This document shows positions 7,263-58,518 of a DNA stretch of 64,000 nt, piece after piece. A program made the translations under genes and the position numbers. Position 1 is the first letter of the stretch. Each line of letters begins with the position of its first letter. The stretch lies in assembly GCF_001654455.1 (NCBI RefSeq), contig NZ_CP015772.1, forward strand, positions 3,410,001 through 3,474,000. Direction: 5' to 3'. The notes under the pieces were generated by a model that saw only the letters and a program-made list of their open reading frames with translations, had not been told where the DNA came from and ran no database searches. The stretch comes from Niabella ginsenosidivorans. GTDB taxonomy: Bacteria; Bacteroidota; Bacteroidia; Chitinophagales; Chitinophagaceae.

Positions 7263-7766
7263 ATGATCCAAAAAGGAAATACCTTCATCAGAAAAGCCAT
7301 ACCGCAGGAAGCTTCCTTAATTCATGAGCTGGCGCTTGACATCTGGCCCAAAGCTTTTGAAGAAATTTTATCACCGGAACAGATCCGGTATATGTTCCGC
7401 ATGATGTACGCAACGGATGTGCTGAAAAAAGAAATGGAGCGGGGCGTGGAATTTTATATCCTGAATCATGAAGGAGCCGCCGCCGGTTACACGGCTATTG
7501 AACAGAAAAATGAAACGGCCTGGAAACTGCATAAGATTTATCTCTCTCAAAAACTCCATGGCAAAGGATTTGGAAAATACCAGTTACATACAATGGAGGC
7601 CATTGCCCGGAATAATGGCGCTGAATACCTGTGCCTGAATGTAAACCGCTATAATAAAGCTCTTGATTTTTACAGATCGCAGGGATATATCATTACAGGA
7701 ACGGAAGATATTGATATTGGCGGCGGCTATTTTATGAATGATTATGTTATGCAAAAAAGATTATAA
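7263..7766 (+). CDS. GNAT-family N-acetyltransferase
   Basis: This encodes 167 residues and is probably a cytoplasmic acetyl-CoA-dependent N-acetyltransferase of unknown substrate. The GNAT fold is visible: an N-terminal helix with IRKAIPQEASLIHELA, a central strand pair (FYILNHEGAAAGYTAIE), the acetyl-CoA pyrophosphate loop near 95-105 (LHGKGFGKYQ, the Q/RxxGxG/A motif), and the C-terminal block LNVNRYNKALDFYRSQGY, typical of RimI-like members. Its length is normal. It stands alone between a terminator and a 500-nt gap. A -7 box 4 nt upstream fixes the start and suggests a leaderless transcript. Confidence 0.9.
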   Translation: MIQKGNTFIRKAIPQEASLIHELALDIWPKAFEEILSPEQIRYMFRMMYATDVLKKEMERGVEFYILNHEGAAAGYTAIEQKNETAWKLHKIYLSQKLHGKGFGKYQLHTMEAIARNNGAEYLCLNVNRYNKALDFYRSQGYIITGTEDIDIGGGYFMNDYVMQKRL

Positions 7767-8268
7767 AGAGCCACAACAGCTGCTGAAATAAATAGCCGGT
7801 ACCACTTCTCCGTTTTCACAGCAGGGGGCTAACACCGGGTATCATGCGCAGGTATTAGATCCGGGTTCTTTGCTCTGTGTATGAAGCTGCAGGCACAGCA
7901 CTGGTAATAAATAAAAAGACAGGCATCCGGATCAGACAATTTTTTTTCCGGTTACGCTGTCCAAATGATTCTCTCCTTTCCGGATTTATAGCGGCATATT
8001 CTACGTGCTTAAAACTGAGATAAATTACAATTCATTAATTATCAATGAAATGCGAAGATATCAGGGTGCCAGATGCCAATCATTGGGGCTTGGGTAATTC
8101 CTCAAATTCAGGCGTCGTTTTACATTTTCCAAAAAACGGGGCAATCCTCTCAACGGCTTAAATACCAACCTGCAAACAGGTTATTCTTTAAAATAAATTT
8201 TAATTTTACAGACGCTTAATCTGGGTGCAGAACATCCAGGTGTTTTCATAAAAAAATCAATTTAAAGA
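7767..8268. other. Gene-poor gap before leuC
   Basis: No convincing gene is seen. The longest forward frame from an ATG is a 38-codon run at 8045-8161, with no family resemblance and no leucine-rich stretch, so it does not look like a leu attenuator leader. The last 100 nt are AT-rich and probably hold the leuC promoter. Confidence 0.4.
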
Positions 8269-9687
8269 ATGAGCAACGCTACTACTTTGTTTGATAAGGT
8301 TTGGGACGCGCACGTGGTGCGTCATATTGATGACGGTCCGGATGTTTTGTTTATCGATCGTCATTTTATTCATGAAGTAACCAGTCCTGTAGCTTTCCTT
8401 GGACTGGAAAAAAGAGGTATTCCTGTATTGTACCCGCAGCGCACTTTTGCAACGGCTGATCACAACACCCCCACAATGCACCAGGACCAGCCGGTTAAAG
8501 ACCCGCTATCCGCCAACCAACTGGCAGCGCTTTCCAGCAATGCGGCTAAATGGGGCATCTCTTTATGGGCATTGGGCAGTCCCAAGAACGGGATCGTGCA
8601 CGTAGTAGGCCCGGAGAACGGTATTACACAACCCGGGATGACTATTGTTTGCGGCGACTCCCACACTTCCACCCATGGTGCTTTTGGCTGTATTGCCTTT
8701 GGCATTGGCACTTCAGAGGTAGAAATGGTGCTTTCTTCCCAATGCATTATGCAGCCCAAGCCCAAGAAAATGCGTATTACCATTAATGGCAAACTGGGTA
8801 AAGGCGTATTACCCAAAGACGTAGCCCTTTATATGATCTCCCGGATCACTGCCAGCGGCGCTACCGGTTATTTTGTGGAGTATGCCGGTGAAGTTTTTGA
8901 AAACATGAGCATGGAAGGCCGCATGACGGTTTGCAATATGTCTATTGAAATGGGCGCCCGCGGCGGTATGATCGCCCCGGACCAAACCACTTTTGATTAT
9001 GTAAACGGCAAAGAAAAAGCGCCCAAAGGCGAAGCCTGGGACAAGGCGCTTGCCTACTGGAAAACCTTAAAAACAGACGAAGACGCTGTATTTGATAAAG
9101 AATTACATTTTGATGCAGCTGATATTGAGCCGCAGATCACTTACGGTACCAACCCGGGTCTGGGAACGGGCATTACCCATCAGATACCCAAAGCATCTGA
9201 AGTAAAGGACGGTGAGGCTTCCTATAAAAAATCACTGGCCTATATGGATTTTGAGGAAGGCCAGCCCTTAATTGGTAAAAAGATCGATTATGTGTTCCTC
9301 GGCAGCTGTACCAATGGCCGCATTGAAGACTTCCGTGCCTTTGCCTCCATTGTAAAAGGCAAGAAAAAGGCAGACAATATCACCGCATGGCTGGTGCCCG
9401 GCTCACATATTGTAGAAGAACAGATCAAGGCGGAAGGCATTCTGGATATTTTAAATGAGGCAGGCTTTGAATTACGGCAGCCGGGCTGTTCCGCCTGTCT
9501 GGCTATGAATGAAGACAAAATACCCGCCGGCAAATACGCGGTAAGCACCAGCAACCGCAATTTTGAAGGCCGCCAGGGGCCCGGCGCCCGTACACTGCTG
9601 GCCAGCCCTTATGTAGCGGCTGCCGTTGCTGTAACCGGGGTAGTAACCGACCCGCGTGAACTGATGACCGAAGGAGCTATGGCATAG
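8269..9687 (+). CDS. leuC: 3-isopropylmalate dehydratase large subunit
   Basis: LeuC is the large subunit of isopropylmalate isomerase; with LeuD it interconverts 2- and 3-isopropylmalate and, in organisms with citramalate synthase, also handles citramalate. The protein has 472 residues, the usual length. The aconitase-family pattern is clear: [15 protein letters not shown] near 130, and the 4Fe-4S ligands in [12 protein letters not shown] (about 345) and [10 protein letters not shown] (about 405). It heads the leuC-leuD-citramalate synthase-leuB series. Only 117 nt, filled by a degenerate repeat, separate it from leuD, so co-transcription is likely. Confidence 0.97.
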
Positions 9688-50069: not shown

Positions 50070-50095
50070 AATAAAAGATATTTTTGTCTTTTATT
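50070..50095 (+). promoter_or_regulatory. Inverted-repeat operator around the -7 box of the Rrf2 gene
   Basis: AATAAAAGA (50070-50078) and TCTTTTATT (50087-50095) are perfect inverted arms around TATTTTTG, itself a perfect TAnnTTTG box. Binding by a dimeric regulator would cover the promoter, as expected for Rrf2 self-repression. The left half (AATAAAAGATA) recurs at 50575. Confidence 0.65.
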
Positions 50096-50130
50096 AAATT
50101 TGAAGCTATCTTCGCACTGAAAAAGAAAAA

Positions 50131-50565
50131 ATGTTTTCAAAGACTTGTGAATATGCAATACGGGCAGTCCTGTTCATTGCCCATAAATCGGAGGGTGGCA
50201 ATAAAGTAAGCATTAAAGACATTGCCAGAGGCATTGACTCCCCGGAGCACTTTGTTGCCAAGATCCTGCAAAACCTCAGTAAAAAGGGGTTGCTCCAATC
50301 ACAGAAAGGCCCTGCCGGCGGGTTTTACCTGGATGATGCCAGCAGGAAGCATTCTCTGGCGGATATTGTAAAAGCCATAGACGGTGATAAGCTCTTTTCA
50401 GGCTGTGGGTTAGGATTGAAGCAATGCTCGGAAACACGCCCCTGCCCCATTCATAATGAATACAAAGAAATAAGGAAAAAGCTGATCTCCATGCTGGAAA
50501 AGGCAAGGGTGGGCATTTTCAGCGAGGAGCTGGCAAAAAACATGCTCTTCCTGAAACGGAAATAA
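50131..50565 (+). CDS. Rrf2-family regulator with three-cysteine cluster motif
   Basis: This encodes 144 residues. The winged HTH (about 1-80) has MFSKTCEYAIRAVLFIAHKS, the recognition-helix block IDSPEHFVAKILQNLSKKG and the wing QKGPAGGFYLD. Cys92, Cys99 and Cys105 (GCGLGLKQCSETRPCPIH) form the site that carries an iron-sulfur cluster in NsrR/IscR-like members, which sense nitric oxide, oxygen or iron-sulfur status. It begins the cluster of respiratory and NO-defence genes and has an inverted repeat over its own promoter. NO sensing is inferred from context (globin, RIC, haemerythrin). Confidence 0.92.
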   Translation: MFSKTCEYAIRAVLFIAHKSEGGNKVSIKDIARGIDSPEHFVAKILQNLSKKGLLQSQKGPAGGFYLDDASRKHSLADIVKAIDGDKLFSGCGLGLKQCSETRPCPIHNEYKEIRKKLISMLEKARVGIFSEELAKNMLFLKRK

Positions 50566-50574
50566 TTTTCAGAT

Positions 50575-50605
50575 AATAAAAGATAAAAAGGTATTAATAT
50601 CCTTT
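50575..50605 (+). promoter_or_regulatory. Second Rrf2 half-site plus inverted repeat before the oxidase gene
   Basis: AATAAAAGATA (50575-50585) is identical to the left arm at 50070. It is followed by AAAGG-TATTAATAT-CCTTT (50587-50605), which ends 2 nt before the ATG. It could be a second regulatory site or an RNA hairpin near the start codon. Confidence 0.45.
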
Positions 50606-50607
50606 AT

Positions 50608-52764
50608 ATGAAATCACAAGGCTATTTAAAAAAGATCATCTCCTGTGCGTTCGCCTGTCTGGCAGGAATGGTGCGGTTGCAGGCGCAGACAATGCGTCCT
50701 TACAGGTTTTCGCTTGATTCAGGCGATGGGCCCCTGTTCATTTTGCTGGTACTTGCATTGTTCTTATTTGCTATTGTACTGTTATTGCTGGTTAAAGTGC
50801 AGCAGATCAGAGAACTGCTCCGGAAAAAAACAGGCAGACCGGACGCCTCCTTTTTAAAAGAATGCACTGGCAGCTTAAGCAGCCGGCAAATTGAAAGGGT
50901 ACTGCAGACCAAGATCCCCAAAAATACTGTACGCATCCTGCTGGTAGCCTGGACCAGCCTGTCAGCTACAGATATTCCGTTAAATACATTTGCGCAGGCA
51001 GCAGCAGATGCAACCCATAAACCGCTTTTAAGCCAAACGGGCATCCTCATTACCATTGTACTGTTGCTGATCCCCATTTCATTAGCAATTGTGCTATTGA
51101 CCATTAAATTAAAAAATGTATATACCCGGTTTCAAAACAGGCAAAATCTGGAAAAGGCCGGTCAGCTGGCAGCTTACCTGGATCATTTACCGGAACAAGA
51201 GGCAGCCCGGCTGCTGAGCAGGAGAAAACAGGCGCTGGATTATCAATTATCGAACAGGGAATTATCCGGTGATCAGCCTGCTGAGGATAAAAGGGGCCTG
51301 CTGAGCATCAACGGGGAGCCCGGCCTGCCCATAGTTGCGGTGAAACAAAAAGCGCAACAGCGTCCGAACATAGACCCGGAGTTGGGGCGCCTGGTGCTGT
51401 GGTACCTGGGCTGCGCCACATTCTGGCTGTTATTCGGCACTACCGTTGGGGAATATATAGGGATCAAATTTGTAGCGCCGGATGCGGATCATATAAGCTG
51501 GCTCAGCTTTGGCAGGTTACGGCCGGTGCATACCAATTCGGTTTTCTGGGGCTGGGCTTCGCTGGGCATGTTGGGGCTTGGCTATTATATTGTGCCACGG
51601 GTATGCAATACAAAGCTGGCTAATATAAAATGGGCATGGTACAGTTTATACCTGATCAATGCGTCAGTAATAGCCGGCACGATCTGCCTGCTGGCCGGCA
51701 TTAATAATGGCGGCGGTGAATACCGCGAATACATCTGGCCGGTAATGCTGCTGTTCGCGATCGGGCTGGTCTTAACATTGATCAACTTTATGAAAACCAT
51801 AGCCCGGCGCACCACAAAGGAAATTTACATCTCCAGCTGGTACATCGTTTCATCCATCATCTTTACCATTGTTATTGCATTGGTAGCTTATATCCCTTAC
51901 TGGCAAAACGGACTGGGTGAGACCATAGCACAGGGCTATTATATGCACCAGGGTGTGGGAATGTGGTTTATGCTGTTCACGCTTGGTATTGTATATTACT
52001 TTCTGCCGCAGCAATTGAACAAGCCCATTTATTCCTATAGCCTGGGTATCCTCGCCTTCTGGACGCAGATCCTATTTTATACCTTAATAGGAACACATCA
52101 CTTTGTGTTCAGTGCTATTCCCTGGTGGCTGCAAACCGTTGCCATTGTAGGAAGTGCCGGCATGGCTATTCCGGTCATTGCCGGAACCACTAATTTCCTG
52201 ATGACGTTTAAAGGAACCTGGTATAAGGTCAAGGGCAGCTATACGCTCCCCTTCTTCCTGGTAGGCACCGTATTTTATTTTACAGGCTCTATGCAGGGGA
52301 CAGCAGAAGCGTTTCGCGAAACAAACCTGATATGGCACTTTACTGACTTTACTGTGGCACACTCCCACTTGACCATGTATGGCATCATTTGCTTCTTTTT
52401 GTGGGCAGCCATATACGCGCTCATACCCAGGCTCACGGGTAAGGAGGCTCCGCAGATCACCATCGGGGTGCATTTTTGGCTGGCATTCATCGGCATGCTG
52501 TTTTATACAATTCCACTGATGTATGGCAGCACTTTAAAAGGCCTGTTGTGGAAAGAAGGGAAACCTTTTATTGATGGTGTAGTGCTGATGGCACCTTACT
52601 GGCTGTGGCGTGCCATCGGCGGCAGCCTGATGTGGCTGTCGCACCTGTTCTTTGCCTATAATATATACAGGATGTTGTCCAGGAGCTATATAGTAGATGT
52701 AAAAGAAGCGGCTATAGAAAAGCTGGAAAAGGACAATAACCTCTCCGCACAACCCATTGCATAA
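50608..52764 (+). CDS. C-family (cbb3-like) heme-copper oxidase subunit I with N-terminal membrane extension
   Basis: This encodes 718 residues. Residues from about 260 on form a CcoN-like core of 12 or so helices: low-spin heme His308 (LRPVHTN), CuB ligands His447 and His497-His498, Tyr491 six residues before the HH pair, as the cross-linked Tyr of cbb3 oxidases, and heme ligands His585/His587 (VAHSHLT). So the O2-reducing centre looks complete. The first 250 residues are unusual: a signal peptide-like start, a helix (42-63), a soluble loop, a second helix (145-166) and a charged stretch; this resembles the N-terminal part of Bacteroidota CcoP fused in front. Bacteroidota normally fuse CcoN to CcoO instead. 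Function: terminal oxidase; NO reduction cannot be excluded. Confidence 0.85.
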   Translation: MKSQGYLKKIISCAFACLAGMVRLQAQTMRPYRFSLDSGDGPLFILLVLALFLFAIVLLLLVKVQQIRELLRKKTGRPDASFLKECTGSLSSRQIERVLQTKIPKNTVRILLVAWTSLSATDIPLNTFAQAAADATHKPLLSQTGILITIVLLLIPISLAIVLLTIKLKNVYTRFQNRQNLEKAGQLAAYLDHLPEQEAARLLSRRKQALDYQLSNRELSGDQPAEDKRGLLSINGEPGLPIVAVKQKAQQRPNIDPELGRLVLWYLGCATFWLLFGTTVGEYIGIKFVAPDADHISWLSFGRLRPVHTNSVFWGWASLGMLGLGYYIVPRVCNTKLANIKWAWYSLYLINASVIAGTICLLAGINNGGGEYREYIWPVMLLFAIGLVLTLINFMKTIARRTTKEIYISSWYIVSSIIFTIVIALVAYIPYWQNGLGETIAQGYYMHQGVGMWFMLFTLGIVYYFLPQQLNKPIYSYSLGILAFWTQILFYTLIGTHHFVFSAIPWWLQTVAIVGSAGMAIPVIAGTTNFLMTFKGTWYKVKGSYTLPFFLVGTVFYFTGSMQGTAEAFRETNLIWHFTDFTVAHSHLTMYGIICFFLWAAIYALIPRLTGKEAPQITIGVHFWLAFIGMLFYTIPLMYGSTLKGLLWKEGKPFIDGVVLMAPYWLWRAIGGSLMWLSHLFFAYNIYRMLSRSYIVDVKEAAIEKLEKDNNLSAQPIA

Positions 52765-52783
52765 TTTTCATTAAACCGGCAGC

Positions 52784-53791
52784 ATGAATTTTTTTAATAA
52801 TCATAAAAAACTTTTTGGAACCGCAGCATTGTTTTTTATTGGCCTTACTGTTATGGTGGCTATACTGCCCGCCATCAATAACCAGCAGCACAATGCCCCG
52901 CTGCCCGGCGCCTCCCCCCTGAGTACGGACGCCAGAAAGGGAAAAGCAATATTTGTAGCTAACGGCTGCGTTGCCTGTCATACCCAACAGGTGCGTAATG
53001 TGGATATGGATAAAGTTTGGGGAAGCCGCCCCAGCCTTGCGGCAGATTATGCAGCTATTCACCGTACCGATTTCTGGAGAAATACCGCTACCCTGATGGG
53101 CACAGAACGCACAGGGCCCGATCTTACAGATGTAGGCAACCGGCAGCCCGGCAAAGACTGGAACCTGGTGCACCTGTATAATCCCAGGGCGGTAGTAAAA
53201 GAATCAGTAATGCCCGCATATACCTGGTTATTTACCGTAAAAAAAGAGCCTGCAAAAAATGATGTGGTGGTTAATGTACCCGCCGGATTTATGAAAGGTG
53301 CAGATGGGAAAATAGTAGCCACCAAAGAGGCGCTTTACCTGATCGCCTATCTGCAATCCCTGAAGCAGACTCCGCTGCCTGACGGCAGCTCTGCCCCGGC
53401 ATTTTTATACAAATCCGGAAAGAAAACGGTACCGGGAAACCCTGATGCAGTACCCGAACTGGACGGGAAAGCATTATTTGCCGCTAATTGCCAGGCCTGC
53501 CACCAGGAAAACGGGGAAGGGCTGCCGGGCGCTTTTCCGCCGCTGAAAGGAAGCCCGGTTGTATTGGGCGATGATCTGGAAAAATATGTAGACATTATTA
53601 TGAACGGCTACGATGCCCGGCCTGAATATGGTGCAATGCCTTCCGTAGGAACCAATATGAGTTTTACAGAAAACGAAGTAGCCGCTATTATTAACCACGA
53701 ACGTACCAGTTGGGGAAACAATGGCAAAAAAGTAACCCCTGATGAAATAAAGAAAATTATAGAACTGGTAAAATCCAAAGCTCAGAAATAA
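52784..53791 (+). CDS. Diheme cytochrome c: CcoO-like domain plus class I cytochrome c
   Basis: This encodes 335 residues anchored by one N-terminal helix (about 12-32). The first domain is CcoO-like: heme site CVACH (Cys62, Cys65, His66) in NGCVACHTQQVRN, and axial Met143 in VMPAYTWLF. The second domain is a class I cytochrome c with CQACH (236-240) and Met285 in GAMPSVG. It thus joins the roles of CcoO and of a CcoP heme domain in one protein, matching the CcoP-like N-terminus on subunit I. It starts 19 nt after the oxidase gene; the product is periplasmic and should feed electrons to it. Confidence 0.9.
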   Translation: MNFFNNHKKLFGTAALFFIGLTVMVAILPAINNQQHNAPLPGASPLSTDARKGKAIFVANGCVACHTQQVRNVDMDKVWGSRPSLAADYAAIHRTDFWRNTATLMGTERTGPDLTDVGNRQPGKDWNLVHLYNPRAVVKESVMPAYTWLFTVKKEPAKNDVVVNVPAGFMKGADGKIVATKEALYLIAYLQSLKQTPLPDGSSAPAFLYKSGKKTVPGNPDAVPELDGKALFAANCQACHQENGEGLPGAFPPLKGSPVVLGDDLEKYVDIIMNGYDARPEYGAMPSVGTNMSFTENEVAAIINHERTSWGNNGKKVTPDEIKKIIELVKSKAQK

Positions 53792-54057
53792 TGAAAAGAA
53801 AAACAACAACCTCCTTATTGTTGCTCCTGCTGTTGCACCTGGCTGCAATAGCCTGCCCGGTATGCGAGCGCAATCAACCCCGGGTTTTAAAAGGGATTAC
53901 CCATGGTGCCGGTCCCAATAACAGATGGGACTATATAATCGTATGGACAGCCGTTGTTATTGTACTGGCAACCCTGTTCTTTTCGGTAAAATGGCTGATC
54001 CGGCCCGGGGAAAAGTCCGCCAGTCACATTAAAAGATCCATTTTAAACAACCTGTAA
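53791..54057 (+). CDS. Small membrane protein with CPVC motif
   Basis: This encodes 88 residues; its ATG overlaps the stop of the diheme cytochrome gene by one base, so translation is coupled. A signal peptide-like N-terminus is followed directly by CPVCERNQP (Cys22, Cys25), then by one membrane helix (about 46-66) and a basic tail. The CxxC after the export signal would face the periplasm; it could hold metal or a disulfide, or help copper or heme insertion. I know no named family. An oxidase assembly or accessory role is inference from position. Confidence 0.7.
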   Translation: MKRKTTTSLLLLLLLHLAAIACPVCERNQPRVLKGITHGAGPNNRWDYIIVWTAVVIVLATLFFSVKWLIRPGEKSASHIKRSILNNL

Positions 54058-54058
54058 G

Positions 54059-54460
54059 ATGCATAAAAGCATTATATACATTTTTATTGATGAGGATCCC
54101 CAACCCGTTGCTGCAGTAGCCGCACCTGTAAATTTTGAACTGGATACACGCAAACTGGTTGACGGAGAGCATGTATTAAAAATTGTAAGCAAAGACCCAA
54201 CCGGAAAAGAAGGCATCCGGAAAATCCCTTTTACAGTACGCAACGGGCCTTCCATTGCTATTGAGGGTATCAAAGAAAACGCTATAGTAGACGGGGTGGT
54301 GCCATTAATGGTCAATGCCTATGGTAAAGGGGATCAAAAGTCCTTTTTAATAGAGGGCAGCGAAACACCACAAAGCATTCCTGCATGGGTGTGGATACTC
54401 ATCATCAGCTTTACAGGCTGGGCATTATTTTACCTGGCAAGGTATTTTTATATGACCTGA
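54059..54460 (+). CDS. Tail-anchored Ig-like protein of unknown function
   Basis: This encodes 133 residues. A beta-rich, Ig-like region covers about 20-100 (NFELDTRKLVDGEHVLKIVS, IRKIPFTVRNGPSIAIEG) and a single C-terminal membrane helix covers about 108-128 (WVWILIISFTGWALFYLARY). No signal peptide is seen, so topology is unclear. It starts 1 nt after the previous stop, clearly in the same operon as the oxidase and cytochrome. I cannot name a family; it may be a small extra oxidase subunit. Confidence 0.65.
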   Translation: MHKSIIYIFIDEDPQPVAAVAAPVNFELDTRKLVDGEHVLKIVSKDPTGKEGIRKIPFTVRNGPSIAIEGIKENAIVDGVVPLMVNAYGKGDQKSFLIEGSETPQSIPAWVWILIISFTGWALFYLARYFYMT

Positions 54461-54470
54461 TTATTTTATC

Positions 54471-54866
54471 ATGACTGAAAAAAAAGATATTACAACAATT
54501 GAAGACATCCGCCTGCTGGTGGACACGTTCTATGGAAAGGTGAGAGCAGACGTCCTGATCGGCCCCATCTTTAACCGGGTCATTACAGACCGGTGGCCGG
54601 AGCACCTGGAAAAGATGTACCGTTTCTGGCAAACCGTATTACTGGGCAAGCACACCTACTTTGGAAGCCCTTTTCCACCACATGCCCGGTTGCCGGTGGA
54701 GCAAAAACATTTTGACAGATGGCTGAAGCTCTGGCAGGAAACGCTTAATGAGCTCTATACAGGCCCCGTTGTTGAGGAGGCCTTATGGCGAAGCGGAAAA
54801 ATGGCAGTAATGTTCTTATCAAAAATAGCATACTACCGCGGCAGCGCCGAAAAACCCCTGGTATAA
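54471..54866 (+). CDS. Group III truncated haemoglobin
   Basis: This encodes 131 residues, a short globin. The start EDIRLLVDTFYGKVRAD, the GPIFNRVI block, FWQTVLLGKHTYFGSPFPPH and the proximal His80 in LPVEQKHFDRWLKLW are the pattern of group III truncated globins; the group II/I Gly-Gly motifs are missing. Such proteins bind O2 and NO and are often found with NO-stress genes. It lies 10 nt behind the Ig-like gene and is in the same operon, upstream of the RIC and haemerythrin genes. Confidence 0.93.
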   Translation: MTEKKDITTIEDIRLLVDTFYGKVRADVLIGPIFNRVITDRWPEHLEKMYRFWQTVLLGKHTYFGSPFPPHARLPVEQKHFDRWLKLWQETLNELYTGPVVEEALWRSGKMAVMFLSKIAYYRGSAEKPLV

Positions 54867-54900
54867 ACAACCGTTTTTTTAATCCGTAAAATAAAATCAA

Positions 54901-55338
54901 ATGATCGTTAAATACCCCTTTGCTGTTCCTTTGGTCTTTATATGGATCGGGTTCCTGTGCGCGATCAGCTTTATGGAGGCCTGGCTTAAGTTCAGGGCTC
55001 CGGGCATTACCGTGCCGCTGGGGCTGGGCATTGGTAAAATAGTATTCACGGCGCTCAATAAGGTTGAACTCGTTTTAGCAATTGCCATCGGGCTGGTTAT
55101 TGTTACCGCCAAAACTCCTGCGTGGTCAAAAATGAACCTGTTATTTGCACTGCCGCTTTGCCTGTTAATACTGCAAAAGATCTGGTTATTGCCTTCATTA
55201 AATGCAAGGGCTGAATTGGCGATACAGGGAGTGCCACAGGCCCCGTCCTGGTTGCATTTTTATTTTGTTACCTGCGAAATCCTGAAGCTGGCGGGCCTGA
55301 CCACATTTGGCATTTCTTTATTTGTAAAACCAACATAA
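54901..55338 (+). CDS. Four-helix membrane protein of unknown function
   Basis: This encodes 145 residues with four membrane helices (about 8-27, 45-68, 77-98, 121-140). The block AISFMEAWLKFRAPGITVPLG is distinctive; Glu26 and Lys30 within or next to a helix could be functional. It faintly recalls the TMEM205/DUF4149 group. I have seen similar genes beside globins and haemerythrins in Bacteroidota, but have no firm function. It lies 34 nt after the globin gene and 144 nt before RIC. Confidence 0.65.
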   Translation: MIVKYPFAVPLVFIWIGFLCAISFMEAWLKFRAPGITVPLGLGIGKIVFTALNKVELVLAIAIGLVIVTAKTPAWSKMNLLFALPLCLLILQKIWLLPSLNARAELAIQGVPQAPSWLHFYFVTCEILKLAGLTTFGISLFVKPT

Positions 55339-55482
55339 AACAGAGGGCTATAAACACAGGATATAACGCCCTTACGCACCGGCGGGGAAGAAAACGGATC
55401 CCGGAAATGCGCAGGGTTTTCAGAAAATTTAAAAAGCACATAAATGCGCTCCTTCTCATTTTTAAAAACAATAAAAAAATAG

Positions 55483-56211
55483 ATGATGAATATTTCTAAA
55501 GATGATAGCATTGGTACAATTGCAGCCAGCGACCTGCGTACCGGAATTGTATTTGAAAAATTCGGACTGGATTTTTGCTGCAATGGAAACCGGTCCATAG
55601 AAACGGCCTGTAAAGAAGCACAGGTCGATCTGAACAAAGTATTAAGTGCTCTTAAAGAAATTGATCCCCAGGGGAAGCCTGGTGTTGATTATAACACCTG
55701 GCCGCTGGACCTGCTGGCCGATTATATAGAAAAAAAGCATCACCGGTATGTATCAGCACAAATACCGGCAATAGAAGGCCTGCTTGAAAAAATAAATACC
55801 GTTCACGGGCAAAAGCACCCGGAGCTTTCTGAAATAAAAAAACTTTTTTCTGAATGTGCAGGAGAGCTGACAATGCATATGAAAAAAGAGGAGCTGATGC
55901 TATTTCCTTTTATAAAAAAAATGGTACAGGCCAGCCAGTTGCATACCCGGCAGCCATCCGCCCCGTTCGGCTCTGTGCAAAATCCCATATATACGATGCT
56001 GCACGAGCACAATACGGAAGGAGAGCGCTTCAATACCATCAGGTTGCTTACCAGTGATTATACGGTACCCCCGGATGGCTGTAACACCTACCGTACGGCA
56101 TACCATGCCCTTAAGGAATTTGAAGAAGACCTGCACCTGCATATTCACTTGGAAAACAATATCCTGTTTCCCAAAGCAATTGACCTGGAAAAATCATTCT
56201 CCTATTTATAA
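55483..56211 (+). CDS. ric: RIC/ScdA/YtfE-type di-iron iron-sulfur cluster repair protein
   Basis: This encodes 242 residues. The ScdA_N domain (about 5-60) holds VFEKFGLDFCCNGNRSIETA with the Cys32-Cys33 pair. The haemerythrin-like domain (about 80-232) has His/Glu ligands in EKKHHRYV, TMHMKKEELMLFP, MLHEHNTEGERF and LHLHIHLENNILFP, the di-iron pattern. RIC proteins restore iron-sulfur clusters after NO or oxidative damage. Its presence behind an Rrf2 gene and a globin is a strong sign of NO response. A 144-nt gap upstream could hold an extra promoter. Confidence 0.94.
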   Translation: MMNISKDDSIGTIAASDLRTGIVFEKFGLDFCCNGNRSIETACKEAQVDLNKVLSALKEIDPQGKPGVDYNTWPLDLLADYIEKKHHRYVSAQIPAIEGLLEKINTVHGQKHPELSEIKKLFSECAGELTMHMKKEELMLFPFIKKMVQASQLHTRQPSAPFGSVQNPIYTMLHEHNTEGERFNTIRLLTSDYTVPPDGCNTYRTAYHALKEFEEDLHLHIHLENNILFPKAIDLEKSFSYL

Positions 56212-56219
56212 AGAACCAT

Positions 56220-56690
56220 ATGAAAAGAGCCGAACAGATCATCCAGCTTTCCCGCGATCATCATTTCGGGTTACTGTTTTGCTGGAAAATCAAACAGGGC
56301 CTGTGTTTAAAAGTGGCCGCAGCGCGCATACAGGCATACATCCGTTATTACTGGCAGGAGCAACTGCAGCAACATTTTCATGAAGAAGAAACCCTGCTTT
56401 TCGGCAACAGGGAAGACCTGCTTTGCCGGCAGGCTATGAAAGAGCACAGGGAAATAGAGCAACTGATACAGCAAATTGCCGGGGGCAACCCTGATGTGGC
56501 GCAGTTCCAATCACTTGCAGACCTGCTGCATCGCCATATACGTTATGAGGAACGAACGGTTTTTCCCCATCTGGAAAAAACACTTACAGATGAGCAACTG
56601 AATAACGTTGGGAAAGCACTGCAGCAGTTGCATACAGCGCCCCCGGCTGACAACTTCCCGGACCCTTTCTGGGCCAGCCCCCAAAGCTGA
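56220..56690 (+). CDS. Haemerythrin-like domain protein
   Basis: This encodes 156 residues and starts 8 nt after the RIC gene. It is an all-helical four-helix bundle with His/Glu pairs at regular places: LSRDHHFGLLF, LQQHFHEEETLLF, AMKEHREIEQ and DLLHRHIRYEERTVFPHLEK. These resemble the di-iron ligands of haemerythrins, though one or two may be lacking. Likely a soluble O2/NO-binding or iron-handling partner of RIC. It is the last gene of the cluster. Confidence 0.88.
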   Translation: MKRAEQIIQLSRDHHFGLLFCWKIKQGLCLKVAAARIQAYIRYYWQEQLQQHFHEEETLLFGNREDLLCRQAMKEHREIEQLIQQIAGGNPDVAQFQSLADLLHRHIRYEERTVFPHLEKTLTDEQLNNVGKALQQLHTAPPADNFPDPFWASPQS

Positions 56691-57441: not shown

Positions 57442-58005
57442 ATGTCTGCATTTATAACACAGCCCTGGCCCTGGTATATAGCCGGTCCGCTCATAGGGCT
57501 CATGGTTCCGGCACTCCTGCTCCTGGGCAATAAATCACTGGGCATCAGCTCTTCATTACGGCATATTTGCGCAGCCTGTTTTCCATCCAAAATACCTTTC
57601 TTCCGGTACAATTGGAGGAAAGAGGTCTGGAACCTGTTTTTTGTGCTGGGAATTTTAACAGGAGGGGCCATCGCTGCCCTTTTCCTTACCGGCTCTGAGC
57701 CGGTGCAGGTGGCACCAGCGCTGGTTGCTGACCTGGCTAAATACGGCATTCACGATTACAGCAACCTGGTGCCGCTGGACATTATCAACTGGCATGCATT
57801 GTTTACAATACGCGGCTTTTTACTGATGGTCGCAGGTGGGTTCCTGGTAGGTTTTGGCACCCGATATGCCGGAGGCTGCACCAGCGGTCATGCTATTATG
57901 GGATTATCCAACCTGCAATGGCCCTCCCTGGTAGCAACCATATGTTTTATGACCGGGGGATTCGTTGTAGCTAACCTGATACTTCCATGGGTGCTTTCTT
58001 TATAA
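57442..58005 (+). CDS. YeeE/YedE-family transporter, first half
   Basis: This encodes 187 residues with about five membrane helices. The signature VGFGTRYAGGCTSGHAIMGL (about 134-153) with its Cys is the YeeE/YedE (DUF395) hallmark; in the full-length relative TsuA such cysteines relay thiosulfate. The protein is half the length of TsuA, and the next gene supplies a second half, as in the PmpA/PmpB-like pairs of many bacteria. The loop near 45-60 (CAACFPSKIPFFRYNW) has two more Cys. Confidence 0.9.
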   Translation: MSAFITQPWPWYIAGPLIGLMVPALLLLGNKSLGISSSLRHICAACFPSKIPFFRYNWRKEVWNLFFVLGILTGGAIAALFLTGSEPVQVAPALVADLAKYGIHDYSNLVPLDIINWHALFTIRGFLLMVAGGFLVGFGTRYAGGCTSGHAIMGLSNLQWPSLVATICFMTGGFVVANLILPWVLSL

Positions 58006-58023: not shown

Positions 58024-58518
58024 ATGATCAGGGGAGATAATGATCCGGTATTGAAAAATCAGGATGAATTTATTGCAACAACTGCTGCAGAAAAAACTGG
58101 AAAAGGGTATTCCAATATAAAGTTTCTGATTGCAGGAATCATTTTTGGTATTGTGCTGACAAAAGCCCAGGTCATCAGCTGGTTCCGCATACAGGAAATG
58201 TTTCGCTTCCAGTCTTTTCATATGTACGGAGTGATCGGCAGCGCCGTTGGGGTGGGAATGCTCTCAGTATTCCTGATCAAAAAATTCAACATAAAAACGA
58301 TCTCAGGGGAAAAAATTGAAATACCTTCTAAAAAATTTAATAAGGGACAGATCTTTGGCGGGCTGATCTTTGGAGCGGGCTGGGCGCTTACCGGTGCCTG
58401 CCCGGGCCCTTTGTACGCCCAGATCGGCACAGGAGCCACGGTAGTCATCATTACCCTGCTCAGCGCGATTGCAGGCACCTGGGTATATGGAAGGATCAGC
58501 CAGAAACTGCCGCACTAA
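58024..58518 (+). CDS. YeeE/YedE-family transporter, second half (DUF6691-like)
   Basis: This encodes 164 residues with four membrane helices. The key block GLIFGAGWALTGACPGPLYA (about 116-135) has the conserved Cys of the family (GxCPGP). It starts 18 nt after the first half and surely works with it as a two-subunit channel for a sulfur compound. The N-terminal 30 residues are hydrophilic (MIRGDNDPVLKNQDEF...), longer than usual; a later start cannot be excluded. Confidence 0.9.
   Translation: MIRGDNDPVLKNQDEFIATTAAEKTGKGYSNIKFLIAGIIFGIVLTKAQVISWFRIQEMFRFQSFHMYGVIGSAVGVGMLSVFLIKKFNIKTISGEKIEIPSKKFNKGQIFGGLIFGAGWALTGACPGPLYAQIGTGATVVIITLLSAIAGTWVYGRISQKLPH

Follow-up and report, generated by a model that had tools for sequence, protein, structure and literature searches.

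The window analysed here is a 64,000-nucleotide (nt) stretch of the Niabella ginsenosidivorans genome (contig NZ_CP015772.1, positions 3,410,001 to 3,474,000 of the forward strand), and window positions are used throughout. At 50070-56690, on the + strand, it contains nine genes which, judged by sequence comparison, are read with moderate confidence as a nitric oxide (NO) stress operon controlled by an Rrf2-family regulator and carrying, between the rrf2 and globin genes, a cassette of four genes encoding a divergent cbb3-like terminal reductase. The system is real and recurrent. The initial annotation, made from the sequence alone, had listed nine same-strand genes at this location, and all nine open reading frames were found there on the + strand, in the same order and with the same overlaps. 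The intergenic distances are, in order, 42 nt, 19 nt, an overlap of 1 nt, and 1, 10, 34, 144 and 8 nt; the spacing of mostly 1-45 nt given previously holds for seven of the eight gaps, the other being that of 144 nt. A palindrome overlooked in that annotation begins exactly at its first position, 50070. The features of the locus, with sizes in amino acids (aa), are the following.

50070-50095, strand (.): perfect 26-nt palindrome, candidate Rrf2 operator (arm-pair enrichment against shuffles)
50131-50565, +: Rrf2-family regulator (PF02082, 93.8 bits)
50608-52764, +: whole CcoN-like gene, made up of the extension and the catalytic domain given in the next two lines
50608-51357, +: N-terminal extension of the oxidase gene, about 250 aa ahead of the COX1 domain, with two signal/helix units
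51358-52764, +: CcoN-like catalytic domain (PF00115, COX1, 284.6 bits at aa 261-673)
52784-53791, +: CcoO-like subunit with an additional, fused c-type haem domain (FixO, 99.1 bits)
53791-54057, +: 88-aa protein with a single helix and CxxC, at the CcoQ position
54059-54460, +: 133-aa subunit in the CcoP position, beta domain (putatively immunoglobulin (Ig)-like) and C-terminal helix
54471-54866, +: group III truncated haemoglobin (PF01152, Bac_globin, 29.5 bits; 2ig3_A, E 2.3e-19)
54901-55338, +: conserved multi-helix (four-helix) membrane protein, outside known families
55483-56211, +: iron-sulfur (Fe-S) cluster repair di-iron protein, RIC (ScdA_N and Hemerythrin domains; TIGR03652, 235.4 bits)
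56220-56690, +: haemerythrin-like HHE protein (PF01814, 40.8 bits, cut-off 25.3)

The recurrence of the cassette was evaluated on 80 named loci, the best 80 of 542 candidates, in which neighbour-gene matches of 60 bits or less (40 bits or less for the two small proteins) were not counted. The core formed by the oxidase, CcoO-like, 88-aa and 133-aa genes is complete in all 56 named loci of at least 19 kilobases (kb), in 73 of the 80 overall and in 23/23 loci of the same family as the window. Of the seven incomplete named loci, six are cut off at, or close to, the end of a contig, and the remaining one, L163, is a genuine exception. The genes of cbb3 oxidases are ordered ccoN-O-Q-P, and the cassette has the same order. 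On these counts the four proteins form one unit, as had been proposed for the two small proteins that the initial annotation left unnamed. Neither the 133-aa nor the four-helix protein has a match in Pfam or NCBIfam, and the matches of the 88-aa protein in these databases are all below cut-off.

The catalytic subunit defines a branch of its own. Orthologues at 54-76% identity were found in 24 other genomes, within a set of 147 genomes of the same family including the one analysed; below them, the next matches do not exceed 33% identity, the range of canonical CcoN in those genomes. The seven members L084-L090, which come from other classes, share 57-60% identity with the window protein, and both they and the window protein show 26-33% identity to the two canonical CcoN compared; the Bacteroidota CcoN of the same genome is 56% identical to that of Pseudomonas stutzeri (row can_L058 was left out of the identity comparison). 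A tree of 53 haem-copper reductases places 35 members together in a single group with support 98/99, and the CcoN group (100/99) and the group of cNOR and qNOR, the C-family NO reductases (NORs; 100/99), both lie apart from it. The C family, comprising the branch, CcoN and cNOR/qNOR, is separated from the A and B families with support 100/100, on six A/B-type rows only. Six rows each represent CcoN, NOR and A/B-type enzymes, five canonical loci with an unmatched motif having been left out. Because CcoN and NOR contribute only six rows each, and because the tree program flags long branches, the position of the branch relative to these two groups is provisional.

The CcoN equivalog model TIGR00780 gives 243 bits against a cut-off of 583.15, and by this measure the protein is not a canonical CcoN; in the tree it falls within neither the CcoN nor the NOR branch. 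Membership of the C family in the broad sense is indicated by the ligand set and by the grouping with CcoN and cNOR/qNOR. The description as a C-family oxidase subunit I in the initial annotation is upheld by the COX1 match and the kept ligands, but it does not extend to a canonical cbb3 enzyme, the protein lying on a separate branch with an altered proton channel. As far as the searches reach, the enzyme appears to be a new branch of a known superfamily, and no paper naming it turned up in the literature searched. A structure model of the oxidase gene was poor (predicted local distance difference test, pLDDT, 59.1; predicted template modelling score, pTM, 0.48) and was excluded from the evidence.

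Residue conservation was assessed on 115 members, reduced to 111 distinct sequences, and on 30 canonical sequences, reduced to 26. His 308, 447, 497 and 498, Glu 371 and Tyr 491 are present in 111/111 members, His 585 in 110 and His 587 in 109; their roles as haem b, haem b3 and CuB ligands, calcium-site Glu and active-site Tyr are those which we take from the P. stutzeri structure. Both haem sites are kept, as are the CuB site and the active-site Tyr, and two c-type haems are found on the CcoO-like subunit. P. stutzeri positions 240, 243, 321 and 323, which we take to belong to the cbb3 proton channel, are changed: among the 111 members Ser240 is replaced by Gly in 109 and kept as Ser in two, His243 is Ala in 109 and Gly in two, and Thr321 and Glu323 are Ser and Gln, respectively, in all. 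The Ser-His-Thr-Glu set is intact in 26/26 distinct canonical sequences of the same family, and by this channel set as well the branch is not canonical cbb3. Tyr 477 and Tyr 557 are invariant (111/111), and position 487, one turn ahead of Tyr 491, is Gln in 107 members and His in four, against Leu in 30/30 canonical sequences. A review (PMC8780969) describes the cbb3 proton path as polar residues leading to the cross-linked Tyr. The altered channel residues and the new Gln would imply a rewired or weaker proton path. The cNOR-type Glu motif HLWVEGVWE is absent, the consensus of the clade reading YYMHQGVGMW, which sets the branch apart from NORs; these carry an active-site Glu, according to a second paper (PMC6713497).

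The other subunits were compared with those of cbb3 oxidases. The CcoO-like protein contains a FixO domain (aa 5-155), a Cytochrom_C domain (aa 227-305) and two CxxCH motifs, with solved-structure matches to CcoO over profile positions 8-193, and its previous description as a diheme CcoO-like cytochrome is confirmed. In an alignment of 25 sequences of the 88-aa protein, the first Cys of a CxxC near the N-terminus is found in at least 90% and the second in all, while both basal members read have shorter, CxxC-less forms. Homologues of the 133-aa protein in the seven distant loci extend into a c-haem domain, the basal ones combining an Ig-like part, a FixP_N-like helix and a cytochrome c; in the one basal homologue scanned, the Big_7 match at its start (E 9.3e-4) and that of the FixP_N-like helix (E 0.006) were both below cut-off. 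The window protein contains no CxxCH, whereas the two basal homologues read have one, and it is therefore not a c-haem CcoP. Its structure model consists of a beta domain and a single C-terminal helix, without an N-terminal helix (pLDDT 73.6); a fold search with this model gave no match at E of 0.001 or less, and comparison of the haem-less form with CcoP by hhalign gave a probability of 12.6%. Given the fused haem domain of the basal forms and the gene order, the 133-aa protein is taken to be a CcoP-like subunit whose haem domain was lost in the lineage of the window. The label Ig-like comes from the sub-cut-off Big_7 match of the one basal homologue and from predicted strands, and the domain would be cytoplasmic, since the model has no N-terminal helix and a single C-terminal one.

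The first part of the oxidase gene, included in subunit I by the initial annotation, is not CcoN. Its aa 11-186 match canonical Bacteroidota CcoP (23 sequences) over the N-terminal half of the latter, with an hhalign probability of 96.9% and an E value, for a single comparison, of 1.5e-10; five control profiles gave 0.1 to 22.7%, and cover in part the effect of hydrophobic composition, which may raise such scores. The extension is absent from the distant loci L084-L090, and 41 of the 111 members have 160-219 residues before the first haem His, about 100 fewer than the window protein.

The genomic setting of the cassette was compared with that of canonical ccoNO, using 24 loci from the same family that are 16-19 kb long, but for one of 12 kb; here too, neighbour-gene matches of 60 bits or less were disregarded. 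Of the 25 cassette loci in the family, 23 were used, 6.5-19 kb long, leaving out L018 (a 4.3-kb stretch) and the window; five are shorter than 13 kb, a size bias that disfavours the cassette. Genes for Rrf2 (19/23), globin (15/23), the four-helix protein (11/23) and HHE (6/23) were found near the cassette, and each of them in 0/24 canonical loci. At least one of globin, RIC and HHE accompanies 18 of the 23 cassette loci as opposed to 5/24 canonical ones, these five by RIC alone. Of the named loci, 37 of the 56 that are at least 19 kb long, and 47/80 overall, have such a gene at a distance of up to 10 kb, and the prediction of the initial annotation that homologous oxidases lie near globin or RIC genes withstood this check. 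In the distant loci L084 and L086, RIC immediately precedes the cassette despite an otherwise different gene order, which speaks for the link to NO. Neighbour clusters among 90 loci include Rrf2 (52 loci), globin (43), HHE (24) and RIC (21), along with a 114-aa cupin-like protein (24), a ferredoxin-like one (17), two Crp/Fnr-like clusters (12 and 5) and a flavohaemoglobin-like one (5), the last four kinds being named by eye from their sequences.

The identities of the NO-related genes, as previously given, were all borne out. RIC exceeds the cut-off of its equivalog model (204.7 bits), the HHE protein that of PF01814, and the globin is placed in group III by its nearest solved structure, 2ig3_A, presumably Ctb of Campylobacter jejuni, the second being YjbI (E 0.0082). 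The three Cys reported for the Rrf2 protein are part of a C-x6-C-x5-C-xx-H spacing, conserved in 38/38 Rrf2 proteins encoded beside the oxidase, that of the window included; these residues are probable Fe-S ligands.

The rrf2 gene is preceded, at 50070-50095, by the palindrome AATAAAAGA-N8-TCTTTTATT. Among 56 distinct sequences preceding oxidase-linked rrf2 genes, 38 have at least eight of its nine arm pairs, whereas 200 shuffles within 10-base blocks gave 6.3 such regions on average and 11 at most. The distance from the rrf2 start is most often 38 nt. The palindrome is the probable operator of the regulator. Inspection by eye of the interval between rrf2 and ccoN in the window gave no second palindrome that could be claimed. 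In its own genome the window copy is the only perfect one, and four two-mismatch sites were detected versus two for a reversed control pattern. The sites in relatives given here are part of all perfect or near ones. Perfect copies directly precede a small cytochrome-like gene and nosZ (G084) and are also located before an HHE-rrf2 operon beside nos genes (G050), before DUF2249/HHE and DUF1858 genes (G007) and, within the genus, before rrf2-globin-RIC without the oxidase cassette (G119). In a second genome of the genus, also without the cassette (G022), a symmetric variant with two matched changes precedes rrf2-globin-m145; here the four-helix protein follows rrf2-globin with no oxidase present. 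By genomic context and shared palindrome, the link of the cassette to NO is well supported. Because relatives possess the palindrome and rrf2-globin operons without the cassette, the latter resembles a module that entered between rrf2 and globin.

Some observations concern the surroundings of these genes. The cassette-less Rrf2-globin operons with RIC or the four-helix protein, at L228 (G119 C1:2177226-2178921) and L232 (G022 C1:2274260-2275602), would mark an insertion or loss point for the cassette. A DUF1858/DUF2249 protein, a many-helix protein of about 420 aa and a PaaD/DUF59-like protein recur as a set, at L080 (11260-13689), L084 (15238-17614), L086 (2045-4432) and L229 (G007 C28:346293-349691), the G007 copy being preceded by the Rrf2 palindrome; the many-helix protein is COX1-like or NnrS-like by eye, and the one scanned had no Pfam match. 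Downstream of the operon, the window contains two small membrane proteins in tandem (57442-58005 and 58024-58518), the first with a weak match to TsuA, a thiosulfate transporter (34.5 bits, cut-off 400), which suggests a split YeeE/YedE-type transporter.

The distribution of the system is patchy. A profile of the 133-aa protein gave 13 clear matches in 395 genomes of the phylum, including the one analysed, one of them being the broken set of G433; G275, G394 and G178 were not counted as clear, their matches being weak or part of another protein. Among the best 80 loci, Bacteroidota carriers include Chitinophaga, Pedobacter, Dyadobacter, Sphingobacterium, Myroides, Pontibacter, Kaistella, Chryseobacterium, Flavobacterium, Gramella and Algoriphagus, and the verrucomicrobial Pelagicoccus lies beyond the phylum. 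Near the base of the branch, the same 80 loci include one Ignavibacterium and two proteobacterial metagenome-assembled genomes (MAGs), whose MAG assignments may be wrong.

In an operon of this kind, NO would damage the Fe-S cluster of Rrf2 and so lift repression at 50070-50095; the globin, RIC and HHE proteins would handle NO and its damage, while the reductase complex would sustain cytochrome c-driven electron flow. The likeliest chemistry would be reduction of oxygen (O2) at low O2 with NO present, and reduction of NO to nitrous oxide (N2O) is a plausible second or even main activity. We lean towards a NO-tolerant, perhaps NO-consuming, oxidase: the intact Tyr and CuB site speak for the O2 side, while the changed channel residues, a nosZ preceded by the palindrome in one genome and an excess of nirK and nosZ in genomes with the enzyme speak for the NO side.

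Several observations weigh against this interpretation. The link to NO genes is common but not universal, given that globin, RIC and HHE genes are all missing from the surroundings of 19 of the 56 named loci of at least 19 kb. RIC by itself does not separate cassette from canonical loci (11/23 versus 5/24, p 0.07). RIC matches above 300 bits were obtained in only four of the seven distant loci, namely L084 and L086 and, downstream of the cassette, L087 and L089; L085, L088 and L090 have no such match, though L088 has a globin. The regulator reaches neither the NsrR cut-off (PRK11014, 34 bits, cut-off 182) nor that of IscR, and its proposed sensing of NO is consequently read from the neighbouring genes. 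The cassette can also break up: in L163 the oxidase is followed by an opposite-strand gene, with no CcoO-like gene within 2.6 kb downstream, and in L081 (G433) the Rrf2, small-protein, globin, RIC and HHE genes are kept, CcoO is gone and the oxidase is reduced to a 74-aa piece of its extension, the catalytic domain being lost. The lost channel residues sit badly with an efficient proton-pumping oxidase. Finally, the genome analysed contains no nirK over cut-off and no nosZ, so that NO would have to come from outside; its four COX1 genes are two read as aa3 type, ccoNO and the cassette oxidase. The broken cassette of L081 is located at 7695-9579 on the minus strand, and G433 has a cNOR elsewhere (L209).

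The enzyme might instead be a dedicated NO reductase, a third C-family route to N2O beside cNOR and qNOR in which the Tyr is kept and N2O passes to NosZ where present; this is possible, although we do not favour it. Such a role would fit the altered channel set, seen in 109-111 of the 111 members, the palindrome just upstream of nosZ in G084, and the reduction of NO in vitro by the P. stutzeri cbb3 enzyme, reported in PMC8780969. It would also fit the gene content of the family: nirK over cut-off occurs in 7/25 genomes with the enzyme versus 9/122 without (p 0.007) and nosZ in 19/25 versus 56/122 (p 0.008), both uncorrected for kinship, and G007 and G045, listed as 100% complete, have nirK, nosZ and the enzyme, with otherwise only aa3-type and ccoNO genes by COX1 and no other NOR candidate. 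The invariant O2-reductase Tyr and three-His CuB set, the missing cNOR Glu motif and the absence from the genome analysed of nosZ and of nirK over cut-off argue otherwise, and so does the outcome for nirK-containing genomes. All 46 family genomes with nirK over cut-off, among 394 searched, were considered; NOR candidates were classed by COX1 bits and frame length, with the sequences read for some genes, and a low-scoring COX1-like type of 440-510 aa from the nos region was excluded. Another NOR candidate was lacking in 7/18 genomes with the enzyme versus 6/28 without (p 0.31), or in 7/18 versus 10/28 (p 1.0) if genes of 565-570 aa are not counted as NORs, so the enzyme as filler of a NOR gap is unsupported; G035, G583, G614, G627, G689 and G694 have neither the enzyme nor a NOR candidate, G614 and G689 being listed as 87% and 88% complete. 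Only tentatively do we put forward a previously unrecognised class of C-family NO reductase that would convert NO to N2O in some of the Bacteroidota, with the O2-reductase Tyr and CuB site kept, a rewired proton channel, two haems on CcoO and a CcoP that has a cytoplasmic Ig-like domain but no haem.

An ordinary microaerobic oxidase, placed near NO genes by a shared low-oxygen or Fe-S stress regulon, appears unlikely. IscR/SUF-type Rrf2 regulators sense Fe-S or iron state, and the best equivalog-level match of the window regulator is indeed a SUF regulator, at 62.8 bits, below cut-off; Crp/Fnr-like genes, by eye, lie near several loci and many loci have no NO genes. However, globin, Rrf2 and HHE are found at none of the 24 canonical ccoNO loci of the family, and the palindrome also precedes an operon of regulator, globin and RIC that has no oxidase. 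That cassette and NO operon adjoin in this genome by chance is very improbable: genomes of the genus with the regulator-globin operon and no cassette, and the patchy distribution over the 395 phylum genomes, would agree with it, but the association is repeated across families and phyla and the ccoNO control disfavours it. The Rrf2-controlled NO-stress operon with its divergent reductase remains the reading adopted here.

Two further types of reductase-like genes were encountered in the family. L198, L200, L201, L203 and L205 contain frames of 444-489 aa for a divergent COX1-like protein of the nos region, some within about 12 kb of nosZ on the same contig; the HH pair is present, the HxH motif absent and, by eye, the preceding helix has no CuB-type His, and these proteins are possibly another uncharacterised haem-copper-like family. 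B-family-like reductases at L196 (1632-3299, minus), L197 (2093-3760), L199 (1439-2977, minus) and L204 (1902-3344, minus) lack the usual Tyr four residues past the first CuB His (GHSSQQ, GHTLVN or GHTIAN) and are likely NOR-type enzymes of this family.

Compared with cbb3 oxidases (CcoNOQP), the window enzyme shares the catalytic fold, the haem and CuB ligands, the Tyr on a separate helix, the calcium-site Glu, a CcoO-like subunit and the gene order. It differs in its low identity and separate branch, in the four changed channel residues, in the Ig-like, haem-less subunit at the CcoP position, in the second haem domain of CcoO, in the CcoP-like extension of the catalytic subunit and in the Rrf2/NO-gene setting; the neighbours of the canonical locus of the same genome (L058) are presumably CcoP, CcoG and CcoI. 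With cNOR and qNOR it shares C-family kinship and the NO setting, but it has no cNOR-type Glu motif, keeps the Tyr and forms a separate branch. NsrR has been linked to RIC/YtfE. With the NO regulons of Campylobacter Ctb under NssR and of RIC/YtfE under NsrR, the locus shares the group III globin (2ig3), RIC and a regulator of Fe-S type; it differs from them by an Rrf2 protein below the NsrR cut-off, a palindrome of its own and an oxidase-like complex. Ctb is NssR-controlled, NO-inducible and of uncertain function, according to a review (PMC3820574).

Taken overall, the interpretation offered in the initial annotation is supported in part: the association with NO genes and the membership of the unnamed genes hold, the oxidase may work in NO or be protected from it, and the enzyme belongs to a separate branch outside canonical cbb3. 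If the present reading is correct, the branch would be a third deep one in the C family, beside the cbb3 oxidases and cNOR/qNOR. General models see it only as a sub-cut-off CcoN, and surveys could thus miscount both high-affinity oxidase and NO-reducing potential. The branch would also provide a natural test for which residues distinguish O2 reducers from NO reducers, and for the share of the cbb3 proton channel that is indispensable.

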